A DNA stretch of 38,994 bases. Origin: Anaerosomatales bacterium. Lineage in GTDB: Bacteria > Actinomycetota > Coriobacteriia > Anaerosomatales > Anaerosomataceae. Shown in pieces: positions 427 to 36,100 of the stretch. Every line of letters begins with the position of its first letter. Within the stretch, counting starts at the first letter, position 1. The notes below the pieces were generated by a model that worked only from the letters and a program-made list of their open reading frames with translations, was not told the origin of the DNA and searched no databases. Where the stretch lies: the NCBI GenBank assembly GCA_030019445.1, contig JASEEU010000002.1, forward strand, positions 1 through 38,994. Reading direction: 5' to 3'. The position numbers and the translations under genes are program-made.

Positions 427-1115
427 ACGGACCTGAGATGAACGACACGCTTGCAGCGCCACACGCCTCCGGTCGTCGTGCCGGCTACAGCAAGGGCGAG
501 GAGATCGCGAACGCGATCACCCATGGGACCGGCATCGGTCTCAGCGTCGCGGCGCTCGTGCTGCTGACGACGTTCGGCGCGCTTTCGCACGACGCGTATC
601 GGCTCGCCGGGGGGATCGTATTCGGCGTCACGCTCATCCTGCTCTACGCGGCGTCCACGCTCTACCACGCGATACCGGGCGAGCGCGCGCGGCACGTCTT
701 CAAGGTTCTGGACCACGCGGGCATCTACCTGCTCATCGCGGGGACCTACACCCCGTTCACGCTCGTGACGCTGCGGGACGCGGGGGGCTGGTGGCTCTTC
801 GCCATCGTCTGGAGCCTGGCCGTGGCGGGTGTCTCGCTCGAGGCGTTCTGGGTGTATCGGCCCAAGTGGCTCTCGGCCCTCGTCTACCTGCTCATGGGCT
901 GGCTCGTCATCGTCGCGATCAAGCCGCTGCTCGCCGCCATCTCCGACACCGGGCTCTGGTTGCTCATCTCCGGAGGGCTGGCCTACACCGTCGGCGCGGT
1001 CTTCTACGTGCTGAAGAAGGTGCCCTACTCGCACATGGTCTGGCATCTGTTCGTGCTTGCGGGCAGCACCTGCCACTTCCTGGCCGTGGTGCTCGCGGTC
1101 ATGCCGACAGGCTGA
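423..1115 (+). CDS. Hemolysin III / PAQR family integral membrane protein
   Basis: A protein of about 230 aa with seven predicted membrane segments. It carries the family's histidine-bearing motifs: HGTGIGLS near the first segment, STLYHA after the second and HLFVLAGSTCHF in the last. In the PAQR/HlyIII family these Ser/His/Asp residues form an intramembrane zinc site, probably for hydrolase-type chemistry; the hemolysin name is historical. The GTG at 423 overlaps the upstream stop and could be translationally coupled. An in-frame ATG at 438 is an alternative start, and neither has a strong Shine-Dalgarno. The gene ends 3 nt from the convergent universal-stress gene. Family assignment is firm; physiological substrate unknown. 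Confidence 0.88.
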   Translation: MNGPEMNDTLAAPHASGRRAGYSKGEEIANAITHGTGIGLSVAALVLLTTFGALSHDAYRLAGGIVFGVTLILLYAASTLYHAIPGERARHVFKVLDHAGIYLLIAGTYTPFTLVTLRDAGGWWLFAIVWSLAVAGVSLEAFWVYRPKWLSALVYLLMGWLVIVAIKPLLAAISDTGLWLLISGGLAYTVGAVFYVLKKVPYSHMVWHLFVLAGSTCHFLAVVLAVMPTG

Positions 1116-1118
1116 GCA

Positions 1119-1967
1119 TCAGAGGCGACATCCGGGCGGCACGAGCAGCACGGGGCAACGCGTCTGCTGGACGACGAGGTGGGTCACGCTGCCGAGGGGC
1201 GGCTCCGAGGCGTCATCGCCGTCGGGCGCCATGACCACGAGCGAATACGCGCCGCTGCCCGCGGCCTCGGCCACGAGCTCGTCGGGCGAACCGATGCGGA
1301 TCTCTGTCTCCACCGACTCCACGCCCTTCTCGCGCAGGCGCGCCTCGAGCACCGCGAACCGCTCGGCCGCCTCATCACACCGCAACTCATGCGCGTTACC
1401 GAGGGCGGTGTCGACGACGTGCAGCAGCGTCATCCGTCGGACGCCGCGTGCGGCGAGACCGCCGAGGAGCCGCTCGGCGATGCGAGAACTCGGCGAGAAG
1501 TCGGTCGGGAACAGGATGTGGGCGAGCATCCGGCCGCAGACCTGATCGCTCTGCGAGGCGTCGCCGAGCGCGGGCAGCGAGGCGAGCAGCACAGGGCGTG
1601 TGGCGATGCGGACGAGATCGGAGGAGACGCTTCCCGAGAACGACGTCGTGAACAGTCCCTGCCCACGCGAGCCGACGAGGATCATCCCCGCGTCGTGCTG
1701 ACGGGCGATCTCCTCGATCGCATACGGCGGGTAGCCGAGCTGCATGTCCACGTGCACGGTGATGCCCTGCGCCTCAAGGGCTTCGGCCTGCCGTTCGAAC
1801 GTCAGGCCCGCCGAGGAGCCCGTGTCGACCCCGGTCGCATCCTGGACGTCGATGACATGCACGAGGAACGCCTCACGGACGCCGAGCAGTCCGAGCTGCC
1901 CCGCGCACGCGACGACGCTGTCCGATGACGGAGAGAGATCCGTGCAGATGATGGCGGTAGAGAACAT
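1119..1967 (-). CDS. Tandem universal stress protein (two UspA domains)
   Basis: The 282-aa protein consists of two Usp folds. The first begins at FSTAIICTDLS and ends with a complete nucleotide-binding signature, GSRG then nine residues then GS, so it probably binds ATP. The second begins after HILFPTDFS; its signature region is shortened (APDGDDASEPPLGS) and lacks the first glycine pair, so it has probably lost ATP binding. I chose the ATG at 1967 because GGGGGG lies just upstream and because the promoter at 2009-2036 would start transcription downstream of the longest possible start at 2084. Usp proteins are cytoplasmic stress or energy-status sensors. The gene converges on hemolysin III. 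Confidence 0.88.
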   Translation of the reverse strand: MFSTAIICTDLSPSSDSVVACAGQLGLLGVREAFLVHVIDVQDATGVDTGSSAGLTFERQAEALEAQGITVHVDMQLGYPPYAIEEIARQHDAGMILVGSRGQGLFTTSFSGSVSSDLVRIATRPVLLASLPALGDASQSDQVCGRMLAHILFPTDFSPSSRIAERLLGGLAARGVRRMTLLHVVDTALGNAHELRCDEAAERFAVLEARLREKGVESVETEIRIGSPDELVAEAAGSGAYSLVVMAPDGDDASEPPLGSVTHLVVQQTRCPVLLVPPGCRL

Positions 1968-31940: not shown

Positions 31941-32531
31941 TCAGTCCGGGTCCGCACGGAACGTCCGCGTGGGCGTGACGAGGATCCGCACGGGCCGGTC
32001 GTGCTCGGCCCGCGGCACCGCCGAGAAGACCTGCTCATCGTAGGCGACGCCGATGGTGGGCACGTCGTCGGCGACACGGGCGAGCAACCGGTCGTAGTAG
32101 CCGCGACCGAGGCCGACACGCCACCCCTCGACGTCGAACGCGACGGCGGGGACGATGATCGCCTCCATCTCCTCGAGGCTCGCGCGCGGCGCGGCGGCGT
32201 GCGGCTCGCGCAGGCCGAACGAGCCCGTCACGAGCTCCGACTCGTCATCGACCCAGTGCAACGTGAGGTCGTGCGGTCCGGCGACGCGCGGCATCGCAAC
32301 ACGCGCCCCCCGCTCCCGCATCTCGCGTGCGACGCAGGTCACGTCGACCTCCTCGGGCATGGCGCCGTAGAGCAGCACCGAGGACGCGTCGCGCATCTCA
32401 GGCAGTGCCATGACGGTCAGACAGACGGCGGCTGCGGCCACCGCGCGCTCTTCGGGCATGAGAGCACGCCGCGCCGCCCGCGCTTTGAGACGGATCTCCG
32501 ACTTGCGGTGGAAGATTCCTTCGGTCTGCAT
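31941..32531 (-). CDS. 5-formyltetrahydrofolate cyclo-ligase
   Basis: The 196-aa enzyme has a basic N-terminal helix KSEIRLKARAARRALM, a mid-section VLLYGAMPEEVDV, and the hallmark GLGRGYYDRLLA that binds ATP and folate. It converts 5-formyl-THF to methenyl-THF with ATP, a folate salvage and repair reaction. ATG 32531 has GGGGGAGAG directly upstream; a longer frame (to 32627) would run through the promoter. Cytoplasmic. Confidence 0.92.
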   Translation of the reverse strand: MQTEGIFHRKSEIRLKARAARRALMPEERAVAAAAVCLTVMALPEMRDASSVLLYGAMPEEVDVTCVAREMRERGARVAMPRVAGPHDLTLHWVDDESELVTGSFGLREPHAAAPRASLEEMEAIIVPAVAFDVEGWRVGLGRGYYDRLLARVADDVPTIGVAYDEQVFSAVPRAEHDRPVRILVTPTRTFRADPD

Positions 32532-32573
32532 CTCTCCCCCTTGCGATGCGCGTGCAACCGAACGATACACGGC

Positions 32574-32603
32574 AGTGTAGCGCAACACCCTGACTCGTGT
32601 CGG
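32574..32603 (-). promoter_or_regulatory. Promoter of the 5-formyl-THF cyclo-ligase gene
   Basis: On the minus strand, CCGACA (32598-32603) and TACACT (32574-32579) are separated by 18 bp. The leader would be about 35 nt. The -35 is weak. Confidence 0.5.
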
Positions 32604-32630
32604 ACCCGGACGTGAACGCCGGCTCACCCG

Positions 32631-33875
32631 TCAGGCGAGACCGAGCGCGGTCATCCCCATCAGCACCGTCGTGAGCGCGATCGCGACCACGATGGTCCCC
32701 CAGGCGAAGATGTTGTGGAGCGCACCGTTGACGTGGCTGCCCATGATCCGGCGGTCGTTGATGATCCTCATCATGAAGATGAGCAGGAACGGAAGCATCA
32801 TGCCGTTGACGACCTGCGAGAGCAGCATGATGGCGATGAGGTCGAGCCCCGGCAGCATGATGACCGCCGCCGCGAGCACGATGACCGCCGTGTACAGGCC
32901 GTTGAAGACGGGCGCCTCGGACCAGTCGCGGTCGATGCCCGCCTCCCAGCCGAACGCCTCACAGGTCGCATACGCCGAGGTCAGGGGAAGCACAGCGGCC
33001 GAGAGGACCGACGCGGCGAGCAGGCCGATCGCGAAGAGCACGGTCGCGTACTCGCCGGCGAGCGGTGCGAGCGCCGAGGCCGCCTGCGCGGCGTCGGTGA
33101 TCTGCACACCGGCAGGGTGCAGCACGGTGGCCGTCGTGATGATGATGAACATGGCCACGAGGTTGGCGGCGAGCGCACCCGCGATCACATCCCAGCGCGC
33201 GAGCTTCCACTCGGAAGCCGACGTGCCCTTGTCCACGATGTTGCTCTGGACGAGGAACTGCATCCACGGTGCGATCGTGGTGCCCGTGAGCCCGATCGCG
33301 AGCGCCACGAAGCCGGCCGTCGGGGTGATGGACGGTACCACGAGCGCGCGACCGACCTCGAGCCAGTCCGGCTTGGCGAGGAACGCCGAGACGATGTAGG
33401 CGACGAACACCGACGAAAGCGCCAGCAGCACCTTCTCGACATTGCGGTACGAGCCACGCACGACGAGCAGCCAGACGACCGCAGCCGCGATCGGCACCGA
33501 GAGGTAGCGCGACACGCCGAACATCTCCATGGCGGCGGCGACGCCGGCGAACTCGGCCACCGTCGTCGCGGCGGCGCTCGCCAGCAGGAGAAGCATCGCG
33601 ACGAACGTCGGTCGCAGGCCGAAGCGCTCCCGGATCAGTGCCGAGAAGCCCTTGCCGGTCACGGCTCCCATGCGGCCGGCCATCTCCTGGATGATGACGA
33701 ACGCGGGCGTCATCACGAGCATCATCCACAGCATCTGGTAGCCGTAGCGGGCGCCCGCGACCGAGTACGTCGAGATGCCACCCGAGTCGTTCCCGGCCGA
33801 GGCGGCGATCACGCCCGGTCCCACGACGCTCAGGACGGCGAAGAGCCCGATCCTGCGAGTCCGCTTCGTCGTCAC
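32631..33875 (-). CDS. NRAMP-family transporter of NRMT type (probable Mg2+ transporter)
   Basis: The 414-aa protein has about 11 membrane segments and the Nramp/SLC11 fold. The first segment, GPGVIAASAGNDSGG (19-33), replaces the DPGN motif of classical Mn2+/Fe2+ transporters. The sixth has TIAPWMQF (200-207) where classical proteins have MPH, so the metal-coordinating Met is Ala and the His is Trp. This is the pattern of NRMTs, Nramp-related Mg2+ transporters described from Eggerthella lenta. The GTG start is 12 nt after the stop of the MgtE-like gene, and the operon begins with an M-box, so Mg2+ is the likely substrate. It could still move Mn2+; classical Nramp activity looks unlikely. Confidence 0.9.
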   Translation of the reverse strand: MTTKRTRRIGLFAVLSVVGPGVIAASAGNDSGGISTYSVAGARYGYQMLWMMLVMTPAFVIIQEMAGRMGAVTGKGFSALIRERFGLRPTFVAMLLLLASAAATTVAEFAGVAAAMEMFGVSRYLSVPIAAAVVWLLVVRGSYRNVEKVLLALSSVFVAYIVSAFLAKPDWLEVGRALVVPSITPTAGFVALAIGLTGTTIAPWMQFLVQSNIVDKGTSASEWKLARWDVIAGALAANLVAMFIIITTATVLHPAGVQITDAAQAASALAPLAGEYATVLFAIGLLAASVLSAAVLPLTSAYATCEAFGWEAGIDRDWSEAPVFNGLYTAVIVLAAAVIMLPGLDLIAIMLLSQVVNGMMLPFLLIFMMRIINDRRIMGSHVNGALHNIFAWGTIVVAIALTTVLMGMTALGLA

Positions 33876-33887
33876 GGCCGGGCCTCG

Positions 33888-35699
33888 CTATGCCGGCAGT
33901 GCGGCGTCGAGCAGGGCGGTCAGTCCCAGGTAGACGGCGAGTCCCACCACCGCGAGGCCTGCCGAGAAGAGCGCCGAGGGCGCCCGCCAGCCGCTGCCGT
34001 CCTCGCGCAGGGCCACGTAGGGGACGAGCGCGCCGGCCATCGCCGTGACGAGCACGGCGCCACCGACGGCGAGCGCGATGGTGACGGCGGCCCGCAGCGG
34101 CTCTCCGAGGAGCTCCAGCATGCCGAATGCGATGAGGCCGCTCACTGCGCCCAGGCCGATGCCGACGAGCGTGTCCACCACGAGCCGGCGGCCGAGGGAG
34201 GGCCGGTCCTCGAGGGAGCCCTGATCGATCATCACCGCGAGCGAGTGGGACGAGATCTCCTCGGCAAGTCGGATGATGAGCGGCATGAAGAACGCGGCGG
34301 CGATGAGCGAGACGAACGTCTCCTCGAACGCCGAGAGCAGCCACACGGCGCCCACGCCGAGGACGAGCCAGACGGTGAGCCAGCCGGACTTCCGGCCGAG
34401 CCACGACCACGCGTCCTGCGCCTCGAAGCGGCGGTCGGAGCCGGTGGCGAGCGCGAGGTCCTCGGCCGATTCCTCCTCCATGACCTCGAGCGCGTCGTCG
34501 ACGGTCACGATGCCGAGAAGCGTGCTGGTCTCGTCTACGACCGGCAGGGCGAGCAGGTCGTACTTGCTCATCGTCTCGGCCACATACTCCTGGTCGTCGT
34601 CGGGGTTCACCGTGATCACGTCGCGGCTCACGATATCGGCCACCGGCGTACGCGGCTCCGAGATCACGAGGTCGCGCAGCGAGATGACGCCGGTGAGGCG
34701 CGCCTGGTCGTCCACGACGAAGATGTAGTAGATGCTCTCGTTCTCGGCGGCCTCTTCACGCAGGTGCTCGATGACCTCCTGGACCGTCATCTCCTCGGTG
34801 ACGGTCGTGACTTCGGGCGTCATGATGCCGCCTGCCGTCTTCTCGCGGTAGCCGAGCAGCGCGCGCACCGCCGCGGCCTCGTTGACGCCCATGAGGCGCA
34901 GGAGCTTCTCGGCCTTGTCGTAGGGGAGGTCGCCGATGATGTCAGCCGCGTCGTCGGGATCCATCATCTCGAGGATGTCGGAGGCGCGCTGGCTGCCGAG
35001 GTCGTCGATCACGTCGGCCTGGAACTCGTCTTCGAGCGCGGCGACCGCGAGCGCGGCGGCCGGGTTGTCCAGGTGCTCGAAGACGCGTGCCCGCTGGGAG
35101 GGGGAGAGCTGCTCGAGGACGTCGGCCATGTCGGCGGGGTGCAGCTCGTGGAGACGCTTGTGCGTGACCGAGAGCTGGACGTGCGAGAGGTCGCGGTCGA
35201 GCAGGTCCATGTAGTTCCACGCGATGAGGTTCTCGGCAAGCTCACGACCGACGAGCCTTGTCAGGCGCGCGACGGCACGCTCGAGCACGGGGTGCAGGCC
35301 GCGCAGGATCCCGCGCAGGCCGACCTCCGCGCCGAGCAGGCGGAGCTGGTTGCGGCTCTCGGACAGCTTCAGGTCGTTGACGCGCACGACCTTCATGCCC
35401 TGCGTGTCGACGATCTGCTTGTTGAGCAGGTCGCGATGGAGCAGGACCTCGTCGGGCTGCAGGTAGCTGAAGCGGATGTCCGTCGCGGGCACGTTCAGGC
35501 GGACGCGGTCCTCGTCGATCTCCTCGACGAACTTGCGCCACGACAGCATGAACGGCTTCTTGTCGGGGCCGAGAAACGCGAGCGACGTCACGCGAGGGAA
35601 GACCTCTCCCGTCGCGATAGCGATGTCGCTGATCTCGCCGATGGTCTCGCCCGCGGCGTCGACCACGGGCGTGCCCAGCATCTGGGTCAGGTAGAACAT
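33888..35699 (-). CDS. PRC-MgtE_N-CBS protein with divergent MgtE-like membrane domain
   Basis: A 603-aa protein. The order is PRC-barrel (about 1-70), a second beta region (about 85-130), MgtE_N superhelix (about 155-285, with HPADMADVLEQL and DPDDAADIIGDL), CBS pair (about 290-415, GIMTPEV and VVDETSTLLGIVTVDDALE), then four to five membrane segments (about 440-600). In canonical MgtE the membrane part has a GGNxGxQS motif and DPAxxSxP...TxxD; here I read LAEEISSHS (about 478-486) and no DPA or final Asp. The pore residues therefore seem to be lost or replaced. It may be a divergent transporter, or a Mg2+ sensor for the NRMT encoded 12 nt downstream. ATG 35699 has GGGAGGAGGGAG upstream. An M-box controls the pair. 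Confidence 0.82.
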   Translation of the reverse strand: MFYLTQMLGTPVVDAAGETIGEISDIAIATGEVFPRVTSLAFLGPDKKPFMLSWRKFVEEIDEDRVRLNVPATDIRFSYLQPDEVLLHRDLLNKQIVDTQGMKVVRVNDLKLSESRNQLRLLGAEVGLRGILRGLHPVLERAVARLTRLVGRELAENLIAWNYMDLLDRDLSHVQLSVTHKRLHELHPADMADVLEQLSPSQRARVFEHLDNPAAALAVAALEDEFQADVIDDLGSQRASDILEMMDPDDAADIIGDLPYDKAEKLLRLMGVNEAAAVRALLGYREKTAGGIMTPEVTTVTEEMTVQEVIEHLREEAAENESIYYIFVVDDQARLTGVISLRDLVISEPRTPVADIVSRDVITVNPDDDQEYVAETMSKYDLLALPVVDETSTLLGIVTVDDALEVMEEESAEDLALATGSDRRFEAQDAWSWLGRKSGWLTVWLVLGVGAVWLLSAFEETFVSLIAAAFFMPLIIRLAEEISSHSLAVMIDQGSLEDRPSLGRRLVVDTLVGIGLGAVSGLIAFGMLELLGEPLRAAVTIALAVGGAVLVTAMAGALVPYVALREDGSGWRAPSALFSAGLAVVGLAVYLGLTALLDAALPA

Positions 35700-35745
35700 A
35701 TGCGCTCCCTCCTCCCGGATCGTCGTTCCGGCAGGTCGCTCGGTG

Positions 35746-35780
35746 GGTCCCGGACCCCCGAGCCTGGGGGCGCCGGGACC
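35746..35780 (-). other. Extra hairpin between M-box terminator and the MgtE-like start
   Basis: An imperfect inverted repeat GGTCCCGG...CCGGGACC with an inner GC-rich part, in the leader between the intrinsic terminator and the ribosome site. There is no T-run after it on the minus strand, so it is not a standard terminator. Role unknown. Confidence 0.5.
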
Positions 35781-35841
35781 TACGGACTTGATGGAGTCAC
35801 GAGGTCCCTCTTCATCCGACTACATGACCGACGACACGAAA

Positions 35842-35872
35842 CGACCCCGCGTCCGGGTCGGACGAGGGGTCG
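35842..35872 (-). terminator. Intrinsic terminator of the M-box leader
   Basis: On the minus strand, CGACCCC pairs with GGGGTCG, with GTCCG/CGGAC above it, followed by TTTCGTG. Its 5' arm contains CCCTCGTC, which is complementary to GACGAGGG at 35937-35944 adjoining the aptamer. Aptamer folding therefore decides whether it forms. Confidence 0.75.
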
Positions 35873-35899
35873 GCGGCACGGGCGAAGGCACCCGCATAC

Positions 35900-35928
35900 G
35901 GCACGCCCGCGGCGAACCGCGGCGTGCC
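35900..35928 (-). other. GC-rich hairpin in the M-box expression platform
   Basis: GGCACGCC and its complement, with CGCGG/CCGCG and a TTCG loop, form a strong stem between the aptamer and the terminator. It probably spaces or insulates the terminator switch. Confidence 0.55.
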
Positions 35929-35934
35929 GGCCCC

Positions 35935-36100
35935 TTCCCTCGTCTGAGGTTTGAGCACTGTCCGACGTAGGGCCCGAAGACCCAGCCACCTTAGCCTTCG
36001 CCTTAAGCCGGCGAGGGCTGTTCTACCCATTGGCGTCTCTCGACATTTCCGGGCAGTGGCCTGTGTTCGAACAGGAGCCGCACCTTAACGGACGGAGCCG
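35935..36100 (-). ncRNA. M-box (ykoK) Mg2+-sensing riboswitch
   Basis: On the minus strand the conserved ykoK/M-box blocks occur in order: GTTAAGGTGCGGCTCCTG, CACTGCCCGGAAATGTCGAG, AGACGCCAATGGGTAGAACA, a variable stem (GCCGGCTTAAGGC) and ACAGTGCTCAAACCTCAGAC closing with the 5' part. This is the class found upstream of mgtE and mgtA genes, which closes at high Mg2+. GACGAGGG at 35937-35944 is complementary to the terminator's 5' arm, so a switch to termination on Mg2+ binding can be drawn. It controls the MgtE-like and NRMT genes. Confidence 0.95.

Follow-up and report, generated by a model that had tools for sequence, protein, structure and literature searches.

What does an MgtE-like protein do beside an Nramp-related Mg2+ transporter (NRMT) when both are placed under a single Mg2+ riboswitch? 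The question is raised by a locus of an Anaerosomatales bacterium (Actinomycetota; Coriobacteriia), found in a window of 38,994 nucleotides (nt) comprising positions 1 to 38,994 of contig JASEEU010000002.1 (assembly GCA_030019445.1). The minus strand carries, in order, an M-box, an open reading frame (ORF) for the MgtE-like protein and an ORF for the NRMT, all three within the window. The reading favoured here, with somewhat better than even confidence, is of a Mg2+-uptake operon in which Mg2+ feeds back on NRMT twice, transcriptionally through the M-box and allosterically through a non-conducting sensor derived from MgtE. This main interpretation has been published before, for an operon type described in 2014; what is added is a five-helix partner without the pore residue and a fusion of the same sensor to an MgtA-type ATPase, both of which appear to be undescribed.

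The riboswitch and the transporter

The M-box matches RF00380 in sequence and structure over the full length of the model (positions 1-169, 134.6 bits against a gathering score of 44, E 2.4e-30). Judged by base pairing, its expression platform appears to be coupled to the aptamer: GACGAGGG at the aptamer 3' end is the exact complement of CCCTCGTC in the 5' arm of the terminator, and the duplex of -32.7 kcal/mol is equalled in 3 of 200 shuffles. A terminator-like site is present in 24 of 28 leaders, in all 24 of which the aptamer/arm duplex beats the shuffle mean, a few being at chance level. Complementarity is kept in most relatives, in some with altered yet still paired bases. Such an arrangement of aptamer 3' end and terminator corresponds to the transcription-OFF platform that is standard for M-boxes. 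When cytoplasmic Mg2+ is high, the M-box would fold and hold its own 3' end, the terminator would form and transcription would stop; at low Mg2+ the aptamer 3' end would pair with the terminator 5' arm and the operon would be transcribed.

An earlier reading of the sequence alone (the original prediction) had proposed an M-box/MgtE-like/NRMT operon with a 12-nt gap between the genes, and this is confirmed by the riboswitch match and by ORFs of 603 and 414 amino acids (aa), which lie in the same frame. The host genome (2.09 Mb, completeness 97.6%), which is near environmental metagenome-assembled genomes of Coriobacteriia, contains one M-box, one Nramp-family gene and one CorA gene, and no MgtE above the Pfam cut-off.

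The NRMT is closer to NrmT than to MntH, scoring 449 bits over the whole length of EleNRMT (7QIA) and about 121 bits against DraNramp. EleNRMT, from Eggerthella lenta, is a characterised Mg2+ transporter (PMC8806188); it is the closest solved structure and has the same site residues in transmembrane helices 1 and 6. The metal site consists of SAGNDSGG at residues 26-33 and APW at residues 202-204 (within GTTIAPW). Both motifs had been named in the original prediction as substitutes for the classical DPGN and MPH. The Met and His of MPH are indeed replaced; DPGN is not wholly so, as its Asp is retained (DSGG) and its Asn lost (NDSGG). The case for RNA control and for the identity of the NRMT is strong, and transport of Mg2+ is the best reading of its role. 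M-boxes were also seen upstream of more distant Nramp-family genes (L122, L125, L126, L127, L137, L138), whose products score about 180-215 bits against the window NRMT and have the site residues NDAGG and APW.

The use of the M-box context as evidence for Mg2+ transport, as in the original prediction, is sound as a best reading and is a rediscovery. NrmTs were identified through M-box association by Shin et al. 2014 (PMC4072509), who reported M-box/MgtE-like/NrmT operons, rescued a Mg2+-transport mutant with two NrmTs and suggested that the adjacent MgtE-like protein exerts feedback regulation. Clostridium acetobutylicum Ca_c0685 and the other operons of that study likewise have the M-box, the MgtE-like gene and then NrmT, with feedback proposed. 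By its homology to the MgtE cytoplasmic region and its adjacency to NrmT, the protein studied here belongs with those partners; it differs from the MgtE-like fragment of Shin et al. in having, beyond the cytoplasmic part, a five-helix MgtE membrane domain without the pore residue.

The partner keeps the MgtE sensor and lacks the pore residue

The partner comprises a PRC domain (residues 1-72), MgtE_N (186-286), two CBS domains (to 408), a plug helix (to about 419) and a five-helix membrane domain (about 430-600). It scores 255 bits against TIGR00400 (mgtE), above the cut-off of 232.75. The membrane domain falls short of the cut-off of PF01769 (21.3 against 27.6 bits); the same domain scores above it in the relatives L066 and L088, and by its sequence the domain is a diverged MgtE domain. 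An AlphaFold2 (AF2) model of the partner has a mean predicted local distance difference test score (pLDDT) of 80.7 and a predicted template modelling score (pTM) of 0.40. Residues 181-599 of the model align to full-length MgtE (5x9h) with Z 22.0 over 375 residues, the root-mean-square deviation being 12.2 because the placement of domains is uncertain.

With ligand positions taken from PMC5882242, the MgtE_N and CBS domains and the plug helix retain D91, D95, D226, D247, E255, E258 and D259 of Thermus thermophilus MgtE; D250 is replaced by Glu and E59 is lost. The pore Asp432 (site Mg1) is Ala583 in the partner. None of 59 PRC-type five-helix proteins keeps it: 58 have a different residue there and one is truncated by the end of its contig. 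No other acidic residue occupies the Asp432 column in relatives. Canonical MgtE, by comparison, has Asp432 in 23 of 23 readable sequences, two further canonical loci unreadable by script standing outside this count. In most PRC-type five-helix proteins GGNxGNQ is also replaced, by Rxx[EQH][DE]xS. All 58 five-helix relatives tabulated retain the plug-helix residues E255/E258/D259, which most soluble partners and all ATPase fusions have lost. More than 50 invariant columns fall within residues 21-414 of alignment A2 and none within the membrane domain. In MgtE itself, the usual changes driven by Mg2+ no longer occur once D432A is introduced (PMC5882242). Sensor residues kept together with a pore residue lost give the pattern of a sensor on a non-conducting membrane domain, and from sequence the partner likely no longer conducts. 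The label 'MgtE-like' given originally was right as to homology and missed that the protein has a membrane domain without the pore residue.

Compared with T. thermophilus MgtE (2ZY9, 5X9H), MgtE_N, the CBS pair, the plug helix with Mg2+ ligands and the five-helix membrane domain are shared by alignment and model; the partner has an extra PRC barrel and has lost Asp432, GGNxGNQ, E59 (Mg7) and the ATP-stacking F227. A likeness in role only exists to CNNM/CorB, CBS-pair membrane proteins tied to Mg2+, which have a DUF21 membrane domain and no MgtE_N. For these, transport itself as against regulation of other transporters is debated (PMC8242095).

Association with NRMT and with an MgtA-type ATPase

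Of 296 Actinomycetota genomes surveyed whole, 61 contain NRMT, and these include every one of the 39 genomes that encode a PRC-type five-helix protein (Fisher p 2.6e-33, without correction for common descent). Of 60 NRMT hits, 44 have an MgtE_N gene within 3 kb upstream on their own strand and 11 have an M-box at a distance of up to 4.5 kb. The search for M-boxes upstream of other NRMT genes, suggested in the original prediction, thus succeeds within the window's clade and does not give a universal rule. In that clade an M-box is present in 24 of 25 scanned loci and NRMT is next door in 26 of 26 close partner loci, for which reason the link between M-box and operon is not due to chance. The gene order is constant, partner first, 3-50 nt from NRMT.

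The sensor occurs in several forms; family names of relatives are inferred from the loci. Soluble partners are of about 412-450 aa. The five-helix form adjoins NRMT or, in Geothermincolia-like families, occupies a separate locus. In an Eggerthellaceae-like family (L106-L111), likely kin of EleNRMT, the sensor is followed by a single C-terminal helix, not five, and no M-box was found near NRMT in the Eggerthellaceae-type genomes searched, E. lenta itself not being among them. In all six Geothermincolia-like loci inspected, the gene after NRMT is an ORF of about 190 aa that encodes only a PRC domain. This ORF (L065:4277-4849, L067, L071, L073, L075, L077) is 25-30% identical to the partner N-terminus, and the same genomes have a five-helix MgtE-like protein elsewhere, beside an hpt-like gene.

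In Solincola/Geothermincola-type genomes the PRC-MgtE_N-CBS sensor and an MgtA-type Mg2+ P-type ATPase are joined in one ORF of 1317 aa (Table 1). The ATPase part is of the MgtA type (1101 bits against TIGR01524, cut-off 611), and the sensor part is about 64% identical to that of the window partner. No M-box was found upstream of the fusion in L026-L028. In a maximum-likelihood tree built from the sensor module, the fusion falls within the window's clade (branch 98/86), and the one-helix form groups as sister to five-helix forms (100/97), so that helix loss and the swap to MgtA look secondary; the tree has an unresolved root, and its soluble and canonical groups suffer from long branches. Since the same sensor is fused to an MgtA-type ATPase from within the window's clade, it is tied independently to Mg2+ transport. 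Neither a fusion of MgtE_N or CBS domains to MgtA nor a pore-less MgtE partner of NRMT was found in the open-access literature searched, which is weak evidence of absence.

With confidence a little short of even, PRC-MgtE_N-CBS may be seen as a portable Mg2+-feedback module plugged into unrelated Mg2+ transporters. It would act in trans on NRMT, carried on a dead MgtE channel, on a single helix or free, and in cis where fused to the MgtA-type P-type ATPase in Geothermincolia-type genomes; the proteins annotated MgtE there would be regulators, not channels. In a mycobacterium-like genome (L145:3694-4980 (+) and 475-1551 (+)) a PRC-MgtE_N-CBS protein is encoded some 2 kb away from a CorA-like gene, whose product may be a further transporter partner of the sensor.

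Proposed feedback on NRMT and its alternatives

For relatives it is known that the M-box upstream of an NrmT gene is regulated by Mg2+ and that MgtE is closed by Mg2+ through its cytoplasmic domain. On the favoured reading the partner, a PRC barrel and an MgtE_N/CBS/plug-helix Mg2+ sensor on a probably non-conducting five-helix membrane domain, would sense cytoplasmic Mg2+ as MgtE does, signal to NRMT, a separate Mg2+ transporter, and at high Mg2+ close or slow it. From the gating of MgtE, the gene linkage and the MgtA fusion we infer that the partner contacts NRMT and inhibits it at high Mg2+; the sign of regulation and the absence of conduction by the partner are likewise deduced. Functional coupling of the two proteins had been put forward in the original prediction and stands as the best reading, the idea itself belonging to Shin et al. 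2014.

Several points weigh against such feedback. NrmTs complemented without a partner, and the partner gave the NrmT of Acidobacterium capsulatum no better Mg2+ rescue (PMC4072509); the partner is therefore not required for transport. The five-helix protein is beside NRMT in 26 of the 39 genomes and elsewhere in 13, and the co-occurrence statistic takes no account of phylogeny. A model of the pair read through as one chain of 1022 aa (78 rows; pLDDT 85.9, pTM 0.60) was returned without inter-domain error estimates or coordinates and so says nothing on contact.

The partner could also still be a channel for Mg2+ or another cation with a rebuilt pore, giving two parallel importers under one riboswitch. 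It passes the mgtE equivalog cut-off of TIGR00400 (255 vs 233), retains five helices in a model that aligns to full-length MgtE, and still holds acidic residues in the membrane domain. Yet Asp432 is gone in every relative with no acidic residue instead, invariant columns number over 50 in the sensor and zero in the membrane domain, and the close Eggerthellaceae clade retains one helix and others no helix at all, a reduction that would be fatal to a channel; conduction through a rebuilt pore is quite unlikely. The constant order with the partner first and 3-50 nt away, together with the retention of a membrane domain under loose constraint, as in an anchor, would also suit an assembly, stability or targeting factor for NRMT, a membrane chaperone whose Mg2+ sites merely keep it folded. 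This is unlikely: the plug-helix Mg2+ ligands are found in 58/58 five-helix forms and not in forms without that domain, a distribution that points to signalling between sensor and membrane, and a version fused to an MgtA ATPase needs no NRMT chaperone.

That NRMT mainly carries Mn2+ or another divalent ion, to which the partner responds, is in turn very unlikely. A precedent is the NrmT of A. capsulatum, which has an MgtE-like neighbour and no M-box, is mainly a Mn2+ transporter and complements a Mn2+ defect (PMC4072509). Pairing with an MgtE-like gene alone therefore does not show Mg2+ transport, and the host genome has no other Nramp-family gene. The M-box missing in A. capsulatum is, however, conserved in the window's clade, and the site residues are those of the Mg2+-transporting EleNRMT (PMC8806188).

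Features of the operon and its leader

Table 1. Positions of the features in the window and, by locus, of the sensor-MgtA fusions in relatives.
Feature	Coordinates	Strand	Basis
NRMT, Nramp-related Mg2+ transporter, 414 aa	32631..33875	-	Pfam Nramp 322 bits; EleNRMT match
MgtE-like protein, likely pseudo-channel, 603 aa	33888..35699	-	Pfam; TIGR00400; AF2 model vs MgtE
Codon of A583 (pore Asp432 of T. thermophilus MgtE, lost)	33951..33953	-	alignments
Codons of E413-D414 (plug-helix Mg2+ ligands E258/D259 of T. thermophilus MgtE, kept)	34458..34463	-	alignment
Shine-Dalgarno-like GGGAGGAGGGAG of MgtE-like gene	35705..35716	-	sequence; alignment A3
Conserved hairpin GGTCCCGG...CCGGGACC, downstream of mini-ORF	35746..35780	-	leader alignment
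Mini-ORF-like element GTG ACT CCA TCA AGT CCG TAG (V-T-P-S-S-P-stop)	35780..35800	-	leader alignment
Intrinsic terminator GACCCCTCGTCC...GGACGCGGGGTC-TTT	35838..35871	-	terminator scan; position conserved in leader alignment A3
M-box (ykoK leader) Mg2+ riboswitch aptamer	35929..36099	-	cmscan RF00380
Aptamer 3' end GACGAGGG, antiterminator-capable	35937..35944	-	pairs with terminator 5' arm
Sensor-MgtA fusions	L028:5001-8954, L027:2824-6777, L069:1090-5043 (-), L147:1278-5231 (-), L026 (cut by contig end)

Between the terminator and the start codon of the MgtE-like gene lies a conserved stretch, 35746-35836 (-), that includes a mini-ORF-like element. Its GTG...TAG frame (V-x-P-x-S-x-stop) is found in 27 of 28 leaders examined, with consensus GTG-x-CCN-x-AGT-x-TAG, in which GTG, AGT and TAG are invariant and all four third bases occur in codon 3 (Pro). 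The length is six codons in 26 of the 27 and seven in one, through a 3-nt in-frame insertion. The exact pattern occurs once per genome in four genomes of the family among the 296 searched, and the element is specific to the NRMT operon; as a widespread independent motif it was rejected, single-mismatch matches elsewhere being about as frequent as those of a reversed-pattern control. The downstream hairpin forms 6 to 8 of its 8 pairs in 21 of 21 aligned leaders, and the mini-ORF-like element overlaps mutually exclusive hairpins. Covariation was not shown in this stretch (covariation term -0.03), the sequence varying too little. With E values up to 10 allowed, Rfam matched nothing in the direction of transcription; its best hit, Actino-pnp on the opposite strand, reached 18 bits where the cut-off is 47.7, and was discarded. 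The element could encode a leader peptide or act as RNA. In mycobacteria a conserved upstream ORF lies downstream of an M-box, its peptide being described as mycobacteria-specific (PMC12810186).

Close behind NRMT on the same strand is a 5-formyltetrahydrofolate cyclo-ligase gene (31941-32627 (-), likely ATG near 32531), which may be co-transcribed with the operon.

Implications

Annotation pipelines would call the partner a Mg2+ transporter, as it passes TIGR00400, yet the pore residue is missing in every relative examined. If the partner is a regulator, the pair would offer a system of pseudo-channel and transporter that allows the signalling surface to be examined separately from conduction. 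With the MgtA fusion, two or three unrelated transporter folds would be seen to be served by a single Mg2+ sensor, and together with the pore-less partner this fusion answers the open question of Shin et al. on the MgtE-like gene with testable predictions. The findings further suggest that Eggerthellaceae could be searched for a partner protein; the structural model EleNRMT comes from this group and has been studied on its own.

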